From: Opitutales bacterium
GTDB taxonomy: Bacteria > Verrucomicrobiota > Verrucomicrobiia > Opitutales > T3Sed10-336
Assembly (NCBI GenBank): GCA_022565335.1
Contig: JAIUMY010000032.1
Coordinates: 1 to 33,169, forward strand
Length of the DNA: 33,169 nucleotides
Direction: 5' to 3'
The notes beneath the pieces were generated by a model. It had not been told where the DNA came from, searched no databases, and was given only the letters and a program-made list of their open reading frames with translations. Shown here piece after piece: positions 611 to 4,973 of the stretch. How positions within the stretch are numbered: the first letter of the stretch is position 1; each line of letters begins with the position of its first letter. Position numbers and translations under genes: made by a program.

Positions 611-1632
611 ATGCGGAGCTTGCCGGAGAGTGCTGCCATGCAGGCGCGTTTCGGGTCGCGCCCGTGGCGCACGCCGGCAAGCTTCGCCTTCACCGGATCA
701 TAATCCACAAACCACGACTGAAACAAGGCCCGCGCCATCCCCTCCAACGTCTCATTCAGCTTCCGGTTCAGGGCGATCTTGTCGTCGAGGGCGGAAATTA
801 AATCGACAACAAACAACTCCTTCTCTTTGCCCGGATAAGGAAAACTAAAATCTTCAATTTGTCTGTGGCTTATATGTGGAATCGATGAGCCTGTTTTCAC
901 CGAATCGATATAGTTCCGAAAGAGATCACTACTGACCGCAAACGATATTGTCTTCTGATCGACATTTCCTTTCGACCGAATACGGGCAACACGCTGAACG
1001 AGATAACACGGCAAATCATCTTCTCTAACCTCGACCCAATTTTTTCCGACCTTCGATCCGTCCATTCCTACTAAAACGTCACCAACTCTGAGTTTGTATT
1101 TTTCAAATCGCTTTTCTTCTTCAGGCCAATATCGCGTCTTGTCCGCCCAATAAAATACGCCTTCTTTTACGTTGTCGCCACGTGCTAACCTAATCCCCGG
1201 AGAATCAACAAATTCCGCACTCTTGAAGGCGGGCCCAGAAATAACATCCGCAATATCTCCAAGCCTAACTTCATTACTCCCCCCCATCCGTGTCCATCCG
1301 TGTTCATCTGTGGTTCCTTCTTCTTCCCCATCCCCCCTCGCATACCAAACCACCCCATATTTTTTGATATGTTCTTGCAGCTCCCGACTGCTGATTTCCT
1401 TCACCCGGACAAGGTCCACCTTGAAGGGGATGGTCAGCTGCTCCAGTTTCTCAGCGAGCTTTGCCTGATCGGTCAGGCTGAGGTTGCCATCGAGGGCGAT
1501 ATCGACATCGCTGGTTGCGCTATGCGTGCCCATGGCGCGGGAGCCAAAGAGACGGGCACGCTCCAGCTTCGGGCATTTTTTCAGGATGCCGATGATAGCG
1601 TCACGCTGGCTGTCTTTGAGTCCGTCGTTCAT
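574..1632 (-). CDS. hsdS: Nucleotidyltransferase domain fused to type I restriction specificity subunit HsdS (frameshifted)
   Basis: Residues 1 to about 105 are a minimal nucleotidyltransferase (MNT) domain. They carry the hallmark GSRAMGTHSATSDVDIAL, that is the GS motif plus the SDxD metal-binding acids. After a linker containing TTDEHGWTRMGG the protein becomes an HsdS subunit: VRLGDIADVISG opens the first target-recognition domain, TGSSIPHISHRQIEDF closes it, and ALDDKIALNRKLNETLEGMARALFQSWFVDYDPV is the conserved central helical region. The linker is encoded by a dispersed repeat, so the fusion may be recent. The last ~10 residues before the stop at 574 are out of frame because of the G run at 603-610; the true continuation lies in the next frame. 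The start overlaps the stop of the RhuM gene as ATGA, which suggests coupled translation. HsdS normally binds the two half-sites of the target DNA and bridges two HsdM subunits. Confidence 0.85.
   Translation of the reverse strand: MNDGLKDSQRDAIIGILKKCPKLERARLFGSRAMGTHSATSDVDIALDGNLSLTDQAKLAEKLEQLTIPFKVDLVRVKEISSRELQEHIKKYGVVWYARGDGEEEGTTDEHGWTRMGGSNEVRLGDIADVISGPAFKSAEFVDSPGIRLARGDNVKEGVFYWADKTRYWPEEEKRFEKYKLRVGDVLVGMDGSKVGKNWVEVREDDLPCYLVQRVARIRSKGNVDQKTISFAVSSDLFRNYIDSVKTGSSIPHISHRQIEDFSFPYPGKEKELFVVDLISALDDKIALNRKLNETLEGMARALFQSWFVDYDPVKAKLAGVRHGRDPKRACMAALSGKLRIPPRQTQARNPR
603..610. repeat. Homopolymer run of 8 G (8 C on the coding strand) inside hsdS
   Basis: The run sits exactly where the HsdS reading frame breaks. 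With 7 bases the two segments would join as ...LRIPPGKPKPETLDEQ...; with 8 the upstream frame runs to a stop at 574. Poly-G slippage in hsdS is an established phase-variation mechanism in NgoAV of Neisseria gonorrhoeae. Whether it operates here is inference. Confidence 0.8.
1279..1285. repeat. Run of 7 C (7 G on the coding strand) at the nucleotidyltransferase/HsdS junction
   Basis: On the coding strand the sequence reads ATGGGGGGGAGT, directly at the first plausible internal start (ATG at 1287-1285) of the HsdS part. A one-base change would uncouple HsdS from the nucleotidyltransferase frame. It is a second potential slippage site in the same gene. Confidence 0.7.
1285..1315 (-). repeat. Dispersed ~30-bp repeat, copy A (in-gene)
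   Basis: On the minus strand this reads AACCACAGATGAACACGG followed by ATGGACACGGATGG. It belongs to the same family as the copies at 2861-2890 and 3257-3287. It lies in frame inside the fused gene and encodes the linker TTDEHGWTRMGG. Related repeats of the form CACAGATGNACACAGATG are, as far as I recall, common in several bacterial phyla and often lie beside GxxExxY genes. Confidence 0.75.
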
Positions 1633-2705
1633 GTGGAGGTATCGCCTTTCCTGTTTGAGCGTTTCTGTTTTTGCTTAGCTTGCCCCAGTTTCTTGACGGC
1701 TTCGACGGTCTTGTCGAAATCGCTGGGCCGGGCAGCTTCCAGGCGGCGGCGTTCGTTGTCGTATTGGAGGAATGCTGCGTGGGCGTGTTCTTCTGCCAGT
1801 TCCCGCGAGACCTTGCCGGCGTGGGTGAGGATGTTGCGCTCGTTGAATTCCAAAAAGGCGTCGAGCCGCTTGATCCAGTCCGCCATGTGCATGGGCTTTT
1901 TGCGCTGTGCCTGATCTTCGGCGAAGTCCAGATACATGCCGACGATGCGGTTGAGGCTGTCCAGTTCCTCGTGGGTGAGGTAGTTCTTTGCTGTGGTGAC
2001 GTCCGCCTTGCGAATGTGCCCGTGCGGGGCGTTTTTCCATGTCGTCAATCCCATGTTGGACTTGCCTGCATCTGCGCGGAGTTTGATGATCTCCGTGGCG
2101 GTGTGTCCGTGGATTGCCCAGTGGAGCTTATTCTGGACAGTGGCAAAGAAAATCTGCGTCTGCTCGGCCTGGGGGTCGTAGTCGATACTGGTGGCGTAGA
2201 TGTCGGTGATCTTTTGATAAAAGAGCCGCTCGGAAGCACGTATGGCGCGGATGCGCTGGAGGAGTTCGTCGAAATAGTCATCACCGAGGGTTTGTCCTTC
2301 GATGATGCGCTCGTCATCCATGGTGAAGCCCTTGACCAGCAGCTCCGAGAGTCGGGCGGTTGCCCATTTTCGGAAGGCGGTGCCTCGCGCTGAACGCACG
2401 CGGTAGCCGACAGCCAGAATTGCCTCAAGATTATAGTGATCGACGAGCCTGGACACCTCGCGCGTCCCTTCGATTTGAACTATCCGGAATTTCCGGATAG
2501 TTGCCTGCGGATCCAGTTCGCCCTCGTTGTAGATGTTCACAAGGTGCTCATTGACCGTTTTTACCGAGATTTGGTAAAGCTCTGCCATGAGCCGTTGAGT
2601 CAGCCAGACGGTGCGCCCATCGAGCCGCACCTGCACCTCCGCGCCTTCCTCGCGGTAGATGAGAAGTTGCCCCTGTGGTGGGATGGGTTGAAGCTCGTCA
2701 GGCAT
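1629..2705 (-). CDS. RhuM-family (virulence protein RhuM-like) protein
   Basis: The 358-residue protein has the usual RhuM layout. Near the N-terminus are the segments VWLTQRLMAELY and KTVNEHLVNIYNEGEL, which look like a DNA-binding or substrate-recognition winged region. They are followed by FRIVQIEGTREVSRLVDHYNLEAILAVGYRVRS, then GTAFRKWATARLSELLVKGFTMDDER, and a helical C-terminal half ending in a lysine-rich tail. The biochemical role of RhuM proteins is not established, although they are often found inside type I restriction loci, as here. The gene ends in an ATGA overlap with the nucleotidyltransferase-HsdS gene and follows the GxxExxY gene by ~190 bases. I would keep the function as unknown and accessory to restriction-modification. 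Confidence 0.85.
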   Translation of the reverse strand: MPDELQPIPPQGQLLIYREEGAEVQVRLDGRTVWLTQRLMAELYQISVKTVNEHLVNIYNEGELDPQATIRKFRIVQIEGTREVSRLVDHYNLEAILAVGYRVRSARGTAFRKWATARLSELLVKGFTMDDERIIEGQTLGDDYFDELLQRIRAIRASERLFYQKITDIYATSIDYDPQAEQTQIFFATVQNKLHWAIHGHTATEIIKLRADAGKSNMGLTTWKNAPHGHIRKADVTTAKNYLTHEELDSLNRIVGMYLDFAEDQAQRKKPMHMADWIKRLDAFLEFNERNILTHAGKVSRELAEEHAHAAFLQYDNERRRLEAARPSDFDKTVEAVKKLGQAKQKQKRSNRKGDTST

Positions 2706-2814: not shown

Positions 2815-2860
2815 TTTATTTGTGAAGTTAAAGCTCATAGCCCCAGTCCTTCCAATTTTT

Positions 2861-2890
2861 AACCACAGATGGACGCAGATGAACACTGAT
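2861..2890 (+). repeat. Dispersed ~30-bp repeat, copy B (downstream of the GxxExxY gene)
   Basis: The plus strand reads AACCACAGATGGACGCAG followed by ATGAACACTGAT. It is an inverted partner of the copy at 3257-3287. It ends only four bases beyond the stop codon of the GxxExxY gene, so the two inverted copies bracket that gene tightly. Confidence 0.8.
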
Positions 2891-2894
2891 AAAT

Positions 2895-3278
2895 TCATAA
2901 AGCGAGGCGTAGCCACTCCAGTTTGGCGTGTTTGAAATTGAGGATGAGACCGATCCGAAGACCAGTGATTTTGAGGTAATTCAGCATCTGCCCCTTCTCG
3001 TGGTCGGTAATCCGTTCGATGGTTTTGGTATCGACGACGATTTGATTAAATACGATGAGGTCGGGCACATATTCACCAACTTTTACGGATTTATATATCA
3101 CATCGAATCGAGGTTGCTGGGAAAAAGGAATATTTCTCAACCCGAACTCGACCACTAGGGCATTTTCATAAGGTTTTTCCAGTAAGCCATGCCCAAGGGT
3201 ATTTAACACCTCCATGCCACAACCAATAATCTCGTGAGTCTCCTCTCTGAGCAAAAATCTGTGTTCATCTGTGTCCAT
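2895..3278 (-). CDS. GxxExxY family protein (PD-(D/E)XK nuclease-like fold)
   Basis: The 127-residue protein carries the family signature GLLEKPY (G31, E34, Y37) after the helix ETHEIIGCGMEVLNTLGHG. It then shows YVPDLIVFNQIVVDTKTIE, a strand-turn-strand with Asp and Lys resembling the PD-(D/E)XK nuclease core, and the closing NYLKITGLRIGLILNFKHAKLEWLRL. Both termini match the family's normal full length. Function is unknown; members tend to be scattered and multi-copy in a genome. The start codon and first residues (MDTDEHR) are encoded by repeat copy C and the stop lies four bases from inverted copy B, so the gene looks like a repeat-bounded cassette dropped between hsdM and the RhuM gene. 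Confidence 0.9.
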   Translation of the reverse strand: MDTDEHRFLLREETHEIIGCGMEVLNTLGHGLLEKPYENALVVEFGLRNIPFSQQPRFDVIYKSVKVGEYVPDLIVFNQIVVDTKTIERITDHEKGQMLNYLKITGLRIGLILNFKHAKLEWLRLAL

Positions 3279-3287
3279 CTGTGGTTT
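3257..3287 (-). repeat. Dispersed ~30-bp repeat, copy C (contains the GxxExxY start codon)
   Basis: The minus strand reads AAACCACAGATGGACACAG followed by ATGAACACAGAT. It is in inverted orientation relative to copy B and the same orientation as copy A. The first ATG in the repeat is the start of the GxxExxY gene. Confidence 0.8.
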
Positions 3288-3293
3288 TCTTAT

Positions 3294-4973
3294 TCAGTCC
3301 ATGCCAAAGCCGAGTCCTCCCAAATTGGCCCGGATTTTTGTTTCCAGTTCCTTTGATTCCGCGAACTGCTTACTGAGCTGCCGTGTCAAGCGGTCCATCT
3401 TATCGGCAAAGGGTTCGCCATCGTCCTCCGCATCTGCCGCCCCCACATAGCGACCGGGAGTGAGCACAAAGTCGGCCTTTTGCATATCGGCCAGCTTGGC
3501 GGAGTAGCAGAAGCCGGGTATGTCGGCGTAGTTTGTCCCCTTGCGCCAGTTGCGGAAGGTATCGATGATTTGGCTGCTATCCTCGGCGGTGAAGTCGCGC
3601 AAAACGCGGTCTTTCATGTAGCCGAGCTTGCGGGCATCGAGAAATAATGTTTCACCGGAACGGTCGTGCAAATTTCCGCGTGCCGCTTTGCTCTTGGTCA
3701 GAAACCAGATGCAGGCGGGGATTTGCGTATTCGTGAAGAGCTGGCCCGGCAGAGCAACGATCGCTTCCACCAAATCGGCCTCCACCAGGGCCTTGCGGAT
3801 GTCGCCCTCTCCGTTGGTGTTGGAGGACATCGAGCCGTTGGCCAGCAGGAGAGCCATTGAGCCGGTCGGCGCCAGATGGTAAAGCATGTGCTGGAGCCAG
3901 GCGTAGTTGGCATTGCTCTTGGGCGGAGTTCCATAGACCCAGCGAGGGTCCCCCTCCAGTTTGCCGTCCCACCATTCCTTGATGTTGAAGGGCGGATTCG
4001 CCATGACATAGTCAGCGCGGAGGTCGGGATGCTGATCGTTGGTGAAAGTGTCCGCGGGCTGCTTACCGAAATTGTAGTCGATCCCCCGGATGGCCATGTT
4101 CATCGCCGCCAAGCGCCAAGTGGTGGGGTTGCTCTCCTGACCATAAACGGAAATATCGCCAATTTTACCGTCATATTTCTCAATGAAGTTTTCGCTCTGG
4201 ACGAAGAAGCCGCCGGAACCCATCGCCGGATCATAAACCTTGCCTTTGTAGGGCTCCAGCATCTCGACAATGAGCGAAACGATGGATTTGGGAGTGTAAT
4301 ACTGTCCTCCTTTCTTGCCCTCGGCCAAGGCGAATTCCCCGAGAAAGTATTCGTAAACGTGACCGAGTATATCCTTGGCGTTGAGGCTTTTGTGACTGAA
4401 AGGGATCGACGAAACCACTTCACTGATGAGGCCTATGAGTTTACTCGTCTCCAACTGAAGCTGGTAGTAGCGGTTTTTCTCCAGAACTCCCTTGAGACGC
4501 GGATTTTCCTTCTCGACCGCTTCCAGCGCATCGTCGATCAAGCGACCGACTGAGCGAAAAGTGTAGGTGTCCGTCTTGCCATTTTTGATTTCGATTTTTT
4601 CGCCGGGAGGGAGGGTAGCGTTGTTTTTGATATTTTCCCATCTGGCCAGCGCGGGCACCCAGAAGACATTTTCCTCGGTGAAATAGTCTCGATCTTCCAA
4701 TTCTTCCTGGATCGCCGTCTCGTATTCCGCGTCCGAGTCGTAATCCTCCCGGTCCAGATAGTAATCACTGTCAGGGTCGGTGAACTGGTTCCGAAGCTCC
4801 TCCCGCCGTAAATCGAAGGAGTCTGAGACATATTTCAGAAAGATCAGCCCCAGGACCGCGTGCTTGTACACGGCGGCATCGAGGTTCGAGCGTAGCCGGT
4901 CGGCGGCGTTCCAGAGCTTTTTGTCGAGATTATCGAGAAAAACCTGTTCTTCGTTGGATTTAACCGGGGACAT
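3294..4973 (-). CDS. hsdM: Type I restriction-modification DNA methyltransferase subunit HsdM
   Basis: The 559-residue protein is full length for HsdM. The N-terminal helical domain (NLDKKLWNAADRLRSNLDAAVYKHAVLGLIFLKYVSD) is followed by GGQYYTPKSIVSLIVEML (about residues 222-239). Next comes the S-adenosylmethionine-binding motif I DPAMGSGGFFV (about 248-258) and the catalytic adenine-methyltransferase motif IV NPPF (326-329). It would N6-methylate adenine in the target chosen by HsdS. It is the first gene of a minus-strand unit that continues through the GxxExxY, RhuM and HsdS genes. No recognisable Shine-Dalgarno precedes the ATG. The 265 bases between its start and the tRNA gene hold no feature I can support. 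The partner HsdR is not in the window. Confidence 0.96.
   Translation of the reverse strand: MSPVKSNEEQVFLDNLDKKLWNAADRLRSNLDAAVYKHAVLGLIFLKYVSDSFDLRREELRNQFTDPDSDYYLDREDYDSDAEYETAIQEELEDRDYFTEENVFWVPALARWENIKNNATLPPGEKIEIKNGKTDTYTFRSVGRLIDDALEAVEKENPRLKGVLEKNRYYQLQLETSKLIGLISEVVSSIPFSHKSLNAKDILGHVYEYFLGEFALAEGKKGGQYYTPKSIVSLIVEMLEPYKGKVYDPAMGSGGFFVQSENFIEKYDGKIGDISVYGQESNPTTWRLAAMNMAIRGIDYNFGKQPADTFTNDQHPDLRADYVMANPPFNIKEWWDGKLEGDPRWVYGTPPKSNANYAWLQHMLYHLAPTGSMALLLANGSMSSNTNGEGDIRKALVEADLVEAIVALPGQLFTNTQIPACIWFLTKSKAARGNLHDRSGETLFLDARKLGYMKDRVLRDFTAEDSSQIIDTFRNWRKGTNYADIPGFCYSAKLADMQKADFVLTPGRYVGAADAEDDGEPFADKMDRLTRQLSKQFAESKELETKIRANLGGLGFGMD

Follow-up and report, generated by a model that had tools for sequence, protein, structure and literature searches.

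Two described systems are among the closest to the small element reported here. In the REP/REPIN systems, a small single gene encoding a RAYT (TnpA-REP) is flanked by short repeats that also occur as dispersed gene-free copies and as inverted pairs; RAYTs are HUH tyrosine transposases of the Y1 type, and REPs are palindromic hairpins (PMC2817692, PMC3116915, PMC8266576). The intervening sequence (IVS) of the Coxiella 23S rRNA is 428 nt long, has a 28-bp terminal inverted repeat and contains one S23 ORF (PMC4990558). In a scan that took a single genome for each species, GxxExxY genes turned up in the majority of bacterial phyla and in one archaeal genome. They frequently occur several times in the same genome, and their annotation goes no further than a motif; a search of the open-access literature (PMC full text) gave no description of a link between them and arm repeats.

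Here we analyze a GxxExxY gene within the window, the whole stretch of 33,169 nucleotides from an Opitutales bacterium. We consider it likely, on the basis of comparative sequence analysis, that the gene and its borders form a REP/RAYT-like minimal mobile cassette of 426 bp, the nuclease of which would recognize its own arms; the covariation of protein and arms points to recognition, and the protein may also catalyze movement.

The cassette between hsdM and rhuM

The features of the locus, with the window's first nucleotide as position 1, are as follows.

1286 to 1313, minus strand: solo array (CACAGAT CACGGAT CACGGAT), of the class found in the arms, coding for the linker of a fusion of a nucleotidyltransferase (NTase) and HsdS
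1629 to 2705, minus strand: RhuM-family gene, on the cassette's other side
2826 to 2858, minus strand: copy B of the duplicated hsdM 3' end (AAATTGGAAGGACTGGGGCTATGAGCTTTAACT), directly outside the left arm, with the ancestral stop region as in the relative G352
2861 to 3286, minus strand: entire cassette, 426 bp including both arms, missing from the orthologous hsdM-rhuM junction of G352 (L418)
2861 to 2890, plus strand: left terminal arm, on the gene's 3' side, 30 bp (AACCACAGATGGACGCAGATGAACACTGAT), reading inward AACC and units CACAGAT (2864 to 2870), CGCAGAT (2874 to 2880) and CACTGAT (2884 to 2890), spacing 10/10
2895 to 3278, minus strand: ORF of the GxxExxY protein, 127 aa, PD-(D/E)XK nuclease fold, putative active site E34, D73, D83-x-K85 and Q97
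3257 to 3286, minus strand: right terminal arm, on the gene's 5' side, the inverted copy, 30 bp (AACCACAGATGGACACAGATGAACACAGAT), AACC and three CACAGAT units, spacing 10/10, including the ATG start
3294 to 4973, minus strand: hsdM, the host gene adjoining the cassette
3296 to 3326, minus strand: copy A of the duplicated hsdM 3' end (AATTTGGGAGGACTCGGCTTTGGCATGGACT), directly outside the right arm, still hsdM coding sequence

The layout that the earlier note had read from this DNA is confirmed. Inverted copies of the repeat lie at both edges of the gene (2864 to 2886 on the plus strand with one mismatch; 3261 to 3283 on the minus strand, exact), one of them supplying the start codon and the other lying four bases from the stop codon, and profile matches identify hsdM and the RhuM-family gene as the neighbors. 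A third copy (1290 to 1312, minus strand, three mismatches) is located inside the HsdS fusion, as the note had also claimed. No copy of the repeat is expected by chance in the window, and none appeared in 100 dinucleotide shuffles. Neither the ORFs nor profile searches revealed a known transposase or recombinase gene within the 426 bp.

The third copy is in frame in ORF 574-1632 and separates an MntA-like nucleotidyltransferase domain from an HsdS domain. Because the array at 1286 to 1313 codes for the linker of this in-frame fusion, the solo array seems to have created it. Two HsdS halves (39 to 680 and 574 to 1632) lie in overlapping frames beside a run of about nine G near 602 to 610, which may reflect either a slip in the assembly or phase variation of the specificity subunit through this tract.

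The window's protein matches TIGR04256 with an E-value of 3e-38 (130.8 bits; curated cut-off, 35) and Pfam PDDEXK_3 with an E-value of 2e-35 (122.2 bits; cut-off, 22). The PDB contains no sequence relatives of the GxxExxY protein; its structure is predicted with confidence (pLDDT 94, pTM 0.86), and the nearest solved folds found by Foldseek are a restriction-endonuclease-like protein, Cas4 SSO0001, lambda-type exonucleases and AddAB, all of them weak matches (E about 1e-3, TM about 0.5). All of the 207 genes compared have E34, D73 and K85, the putative catalytic residues; D/E83 is found in 205/207 and Q97 in 199/207. The conserved acidic/lysine site and the predicted alpha-beta core place the protein in the PD-(D/E)XK superfamily as a putative nuclease. 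In two species of genus g21, the gene differs by 30 synonymous and 12 non-synonymous codons, which is consistent with selection on the GxxExxY protein.

Arms and units of GxxExxY genes

GxxExxY genes are present in 164 of 289 genomes of the window's phylum, with up to 13 per genome. IMG/VR holds just 6 relatives (viral contigs); hence, the genes are not mainly phage-borne, and we rejected phages as their main vehicle. Plasmid carriage was considered as well and rejected, with relatives in 7 plasmid records.

The flanks of 207 distinct GxxExxY genes were analyzed with a motif test (unit pattern CRCNRAK or ACAGGAT, spacing of 8 to 12 bp). Inward-pointing unit arrays lie on both sides of 127 of these genes and of none of 556 neighboring control ORFs; at least one side has an array in 159/207, the orientation is wrong in 11/207, and about 23% have an array on neither side. 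A motif-free test, requiring at least two identical 6-mers upstream and their reverse complements at least twice downstream, was passed by 66 of 111 GxxExxY genes versus 23 of 496 other ORFs at the same loci. Across cassettes the outer ends have the consensus TTTAAC(C)...(G)GTTAAA, the median length from unit to unit is 444 bp, and the median distance from the stop codon to the 3' arm is 5 bp. Between tandem genes, 48 cassettes lie along the operon direction and 11 against it. The earlier note had suggested looking for the window's repeat beside other GxxExxY genes: inverted arrays of the same kind are there, but each gene has its own variant with a different unit, and the exact repeat is specific to the window's locus.

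Several operon junctions are occupied repeatedly, namely gatA-gatB (L128, L148, L160, L167, L168, L177), trpE-trpG (L074, L096) and pdh E1-E2 (L023, L024), and the occupants of one such junction sometimes belong to different GxxExxY subfamilies, as if some gaps were preferred. At L029, L033 and L039 the outer unit of an arm contains an extra stretch (e.g., CCACCCGCTTCGCTAGAGG), as if another short repeat had inserted there.

The two arms of a cassette are closely matched. Of 77 loci whose arms both have three or more units, 67 have an identical spacing pattern in both arms (8/8, 8/9, 9/9, 9/10, 10/10, etc.), compared with a mean of 14 and a maximum of 26 when arms were shuffled between loci in 2,000 trials. 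Between arms the units are nearly identical (70 to 100%, with position 4 the lowest at 70 to 85%), while the spacers are 43 to 70% and the inner flanks 24 to 43% identical. This is the pattern that would be expected of a protein-recognized array with matched ends. Arm-to-arm mismatches within units are G-U compatible in 34 cases versus 40 of the A-C type, and the missing G-U excess means that an RNA stem is not the thing preserved; conservation of such a stem was rejected on this ground.

Moreover, unit and protein vary together. When 126 GxxExxY proteins are placed in a tree, the final unit base (G or T) changes 4 times versus 36.8 times after shuffling (minimum, 31), and unit bases 2, 4 and 5, the first spacing and the whole unit also change far less often than in shuffled data, in a comparison in which the unit caller fixes some positions and the rows are non-independent. 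The clade with CGCCAAG units spans Cyanobacteria, Chloroflexi, Planctomycetes and the window's phylum, and the ACAGGAT and CACGGAG 8/8 clades likewise cross phyla. In cross-phylum pairs the mean number of unit mismatches falls from 2.7 at 35 to 45% protein identity to 0.7 at >65%, and agreement in the last base climbs from 0.28 to 1.00 with increasing identity. Distant paralogues within one genome carry different units. Since units track the protein across phyla and differ between paralogues of the same genome, the unit belongs to the protein and not to the host. The earlier idea that the repeat is the recognized end gains support from this change of unit with protein across phyla, which suggests recognition by the protein itself.

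The same architecture surrounds genes of an unrelated fold. In the window's order, TIGR02436 four-helix-bundle (S23/Avd-like) genes have inverted short-unit arrays in 23 of 30 cases (L268 to L297), versus 4 of 30 in a direct-repeat control, and their flanks consist of other units (GGCTGT, GGAGTC, GTTCTG and GCTTAA types). Nuclease activity is thus not strictly needed for the layout, and one insertion mechanism may be served by two unrelated proteins.

Empty sites and gene-free arrays

In G352, a member of the same family with a 94% identical RhuM, hsdM runs directly into rhuM in the alignment and the whole cassette is missing. Copies A and B each match the same single G352 sequence (scores of 17 and 16.5); their score against each other is 13, a value that 20 of 4,630 other window segments also reach. 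At a trpE-trpG junction (L074), a 31-bp junction duplication flanks the cassette. In genus g21, four species have a window-type gene at one and the same gene junction, and two lack it. The gatA-gatB gap contains a cassette in G039 and none in its genus mate G048, and its variants include an internally deleted remnant (G018, L175), arms without a gene (G060, L173) and a single arm (G335, L169). For gene-free arrays (G149, G176, G413; query of 1926/3318 nt), synteny broke at or near the arrays, giving no clean insertion point.

Convincing flanking duplications are found only at the window locus and L074. Short target-site duplications (k = 4 to 8) showed no excess over the null at 75 loci, longer direct duplications beyond the 99th percentile were no commoner than inverted ones (5 versus 10 of 127), and the constant-length target-site duplication of insertion sequences and transposons is not seen; their terminal inverted repeats are present in GxxExxY cassettes. 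The earlier note had proposed searching relatives for empty sites and target duplications. The former exist, including one at the locus of the window's cassette, where a duplication resembles that of a target; a general short duplication was not found.

Copies of the arrays without a gene are common. The g21 array CCACGAATNNACACGAATNNACACGAAT (at most 3 mismatches) occurs in 54, 17, 18 and 17 copies in four gene-carrying species, counts that include the carriers' own cassette arms, versus 2, 0, 6 and 0 copies in four species without the gene; a reversed-pattern control gave 0 copies in the same species. Two of the 54 copies in G149 are the cassette's own arms, and nearly all of the carriers' copies are gene-free. 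Inverted array pairs without a gene, resembling REPINs, are found at L361, L362 and L366. By our own count over the order, at least three CACGAAT-type arrays are present in 13 of 22 genomes with a window-type gene (E below about 1e-33) versus 8 of 155 without one; exceptions include G328 (24 CACGAAT arrays) and G010 (35), which have no close cognate gene in the assembly. The earlier note had held that a repeat spread widely without the gene would speak against its idea. Gene-free copies are indeed common, but they are enriched in those genomes that also have the matching gene, the distribution that non-autonomous derivatives would show.

The window's own genome has a single GxxExxY gene, that of the window, together with gene-free copies of the window-type array on other contigs (C17:150, C140:344, C140:3294) and 23 arrays of the sister type CACGAAT. 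Many unit classes coexist within the same intergenic regions. Contigs C140 and C17 (L010, L011) contain mosaics of several decayed array types (AACCGCAGAGGACGCAGAG, AACCACTGATGGCACTGATTCACACTGAT, CACCACGGCGCAAAGG), side by side and without genes, and at the end of C140 (L010; 4900 to 5342) there is a CRISPR-like array of GTTTCAATCCGCGCCCCCGGATGGGGGCGAC repeats with an adjoining ORF that by eye is possibly Cas-related. In G149 (L348 to L354, L356, L363), members of an exported-protein family starting with MKKYITLAALLAAGTTFANA or MKNTLLITTLLAAGTLGAMA are repeatedly bordered by CACGAAT and CGCCAAG arrays, which may help to shuffle these genes.

Possible mechanism and relation to known systems

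How might such a cassette move? We hypothesize that the GxxExxY protein attaches to the units in each of the two arms, probably as an oligomer in which every unit is occupied by a single protomer, and that the bound protein would bring the two inverted ends together. It could then nick or process the DNA near the outer AACC/GGTT ends, and the cassette would thereby reach gaps between genes, either by being copied or by being moved. Acting in trans, the protein would also spread arms and inverted arm pairs that lack the gene, much as RAYTs are believed to do for REPs and REPINs. We infer binding, synapsis and cleavage, and any need for host recombination in the movement, from the features of the sequences, including the putative active site that has stayed intact. 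The earlier proposal of a minimal mobile or gene-conversion unit made of the gene and its repeats is supported by the matched arms, the covariation and the empty sites, which suggest a part for the protein. More tentative, and in our judgment nearly as probable as its opposite, is the wider claim that GxxExxY cassettes are an undescribed class of mobile elements, in which a stand-alone Cas4/lambda-exonuclease-like PD-(D/E)XK nuclease recognizes inverted arrays with three short units specific to the protein, moves its own gene and disperses gene-free arrays, with the four-helix-bundle genes as a parallel class.

The layout could also belong to an RNA-level element like the S23-coding 23S rRNA IVS, with arms that pair in the transcript, a stem that is processed (e.g., by RNase III) and spread as RNA. 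Size and layout equal those of the Coxiella IVS, four-helix-bundle (S23-family) genes elsewhere have such arms, and cassettes between tandem genes lie mostly along the operon (48 versus 11). However, G-U-compatible changes are not in excess inside units (34 versus 40 A-C) and the spacers diverge while the units stay, so that pairing is not what is conserved; single gene-free arms are common as well, and we regard this origin as unlikely. It is improbable, too, that a different enzyme spreads the arms as generic dispersed repeats, with the GxxExxY and four-helix-bundle genes as captured passengers. Such an origin would fit the many unit classes sharing the same intergenic regions, the two unrelated protein families found between arms and the genomes that are rich in arrays without a close cognate gene, but random capture predicts no link of protein with unit and spacing, and this link is strong across phyla and within genomes. 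Random gene capture was rejected because of this covariation.

The arms might instead be operators or translation signals for autoregulation, in a cassette that is passed on and reshuffled through ordinary recombination without being mobile itself. In the 5' arm, the inner unit adjoins the start codon and often is Shine-Dalgarno-like (RRAG) or supplies the ATG, and covariation of protein and unit fits any DNA-binding protein. We nevertheless find this very unlikely, because it leaves unexplained the equally conserved inverted 3' arm with its identical spacing, the concentration of gene-free copies in carriers and the inverted pairs without a gene; regulation via the 5' arm alone was rejected given the conserved 3' arm and the gene-free copies in carriers.

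If the mobile cassette with self-recognized arms is the correct reading, it would give GxxExxY genes a function and account for a large set of puzzling short intergenic repeats (the CACAGAGG, CACGAAGG, CGCCAAGG, CACAGATG and ACAGGATT types). It would add a system in which a protein and its recognized end diversify together, offering hundreds of natural protein-unit pairs for reading a DNA-recognition code, and would hint that S23 intervening sequences share a common insertion logic with free-standing four-helix-bundle genes.

Compared with known systems, the protein is closest to the solved folds of Cas4, lambda exonuclease and AddAB, with which it shares the E...D...E/DxK and Q-xxx-Y motifs; however, the match is weak and GxxExxY has no CRISPR or helicase partner. 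The 23S rRNA IVS resembles the cassette in length (about 430 nt), in its terminal inverted repeats (about 28 bp), in having a single small ORF and in its patchy distribution, but the IVS sits in an rRNA helix and forms an RNA stem, whereas the window's cassette lies between hsdM and rhuM and GxxExxY arms lack an RNA-pairing signature. As in the REP/RAYT systems, the gene is flanked by repeats that are also dispersed in the genome (G149). The encoded protein, however, is of the PD-(D/E)XK type with no match to a Y1 HUH transposase, and the arms consist of three direct non-palindromic 7-bp units instead of GTAG-tagged hairpins; hence, the cassette is not a member of the REP/RAYT group. Insertion sequences and MITEs have terminal inverted repeats, empty sites and gene-less derivatives in common with GxxExxY cassettes. 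The cassettes differ from them in having no DDE, HUH or recombinase gene and no consistent short target-site duplication, and in ends that diversify in step with the encoded protein.
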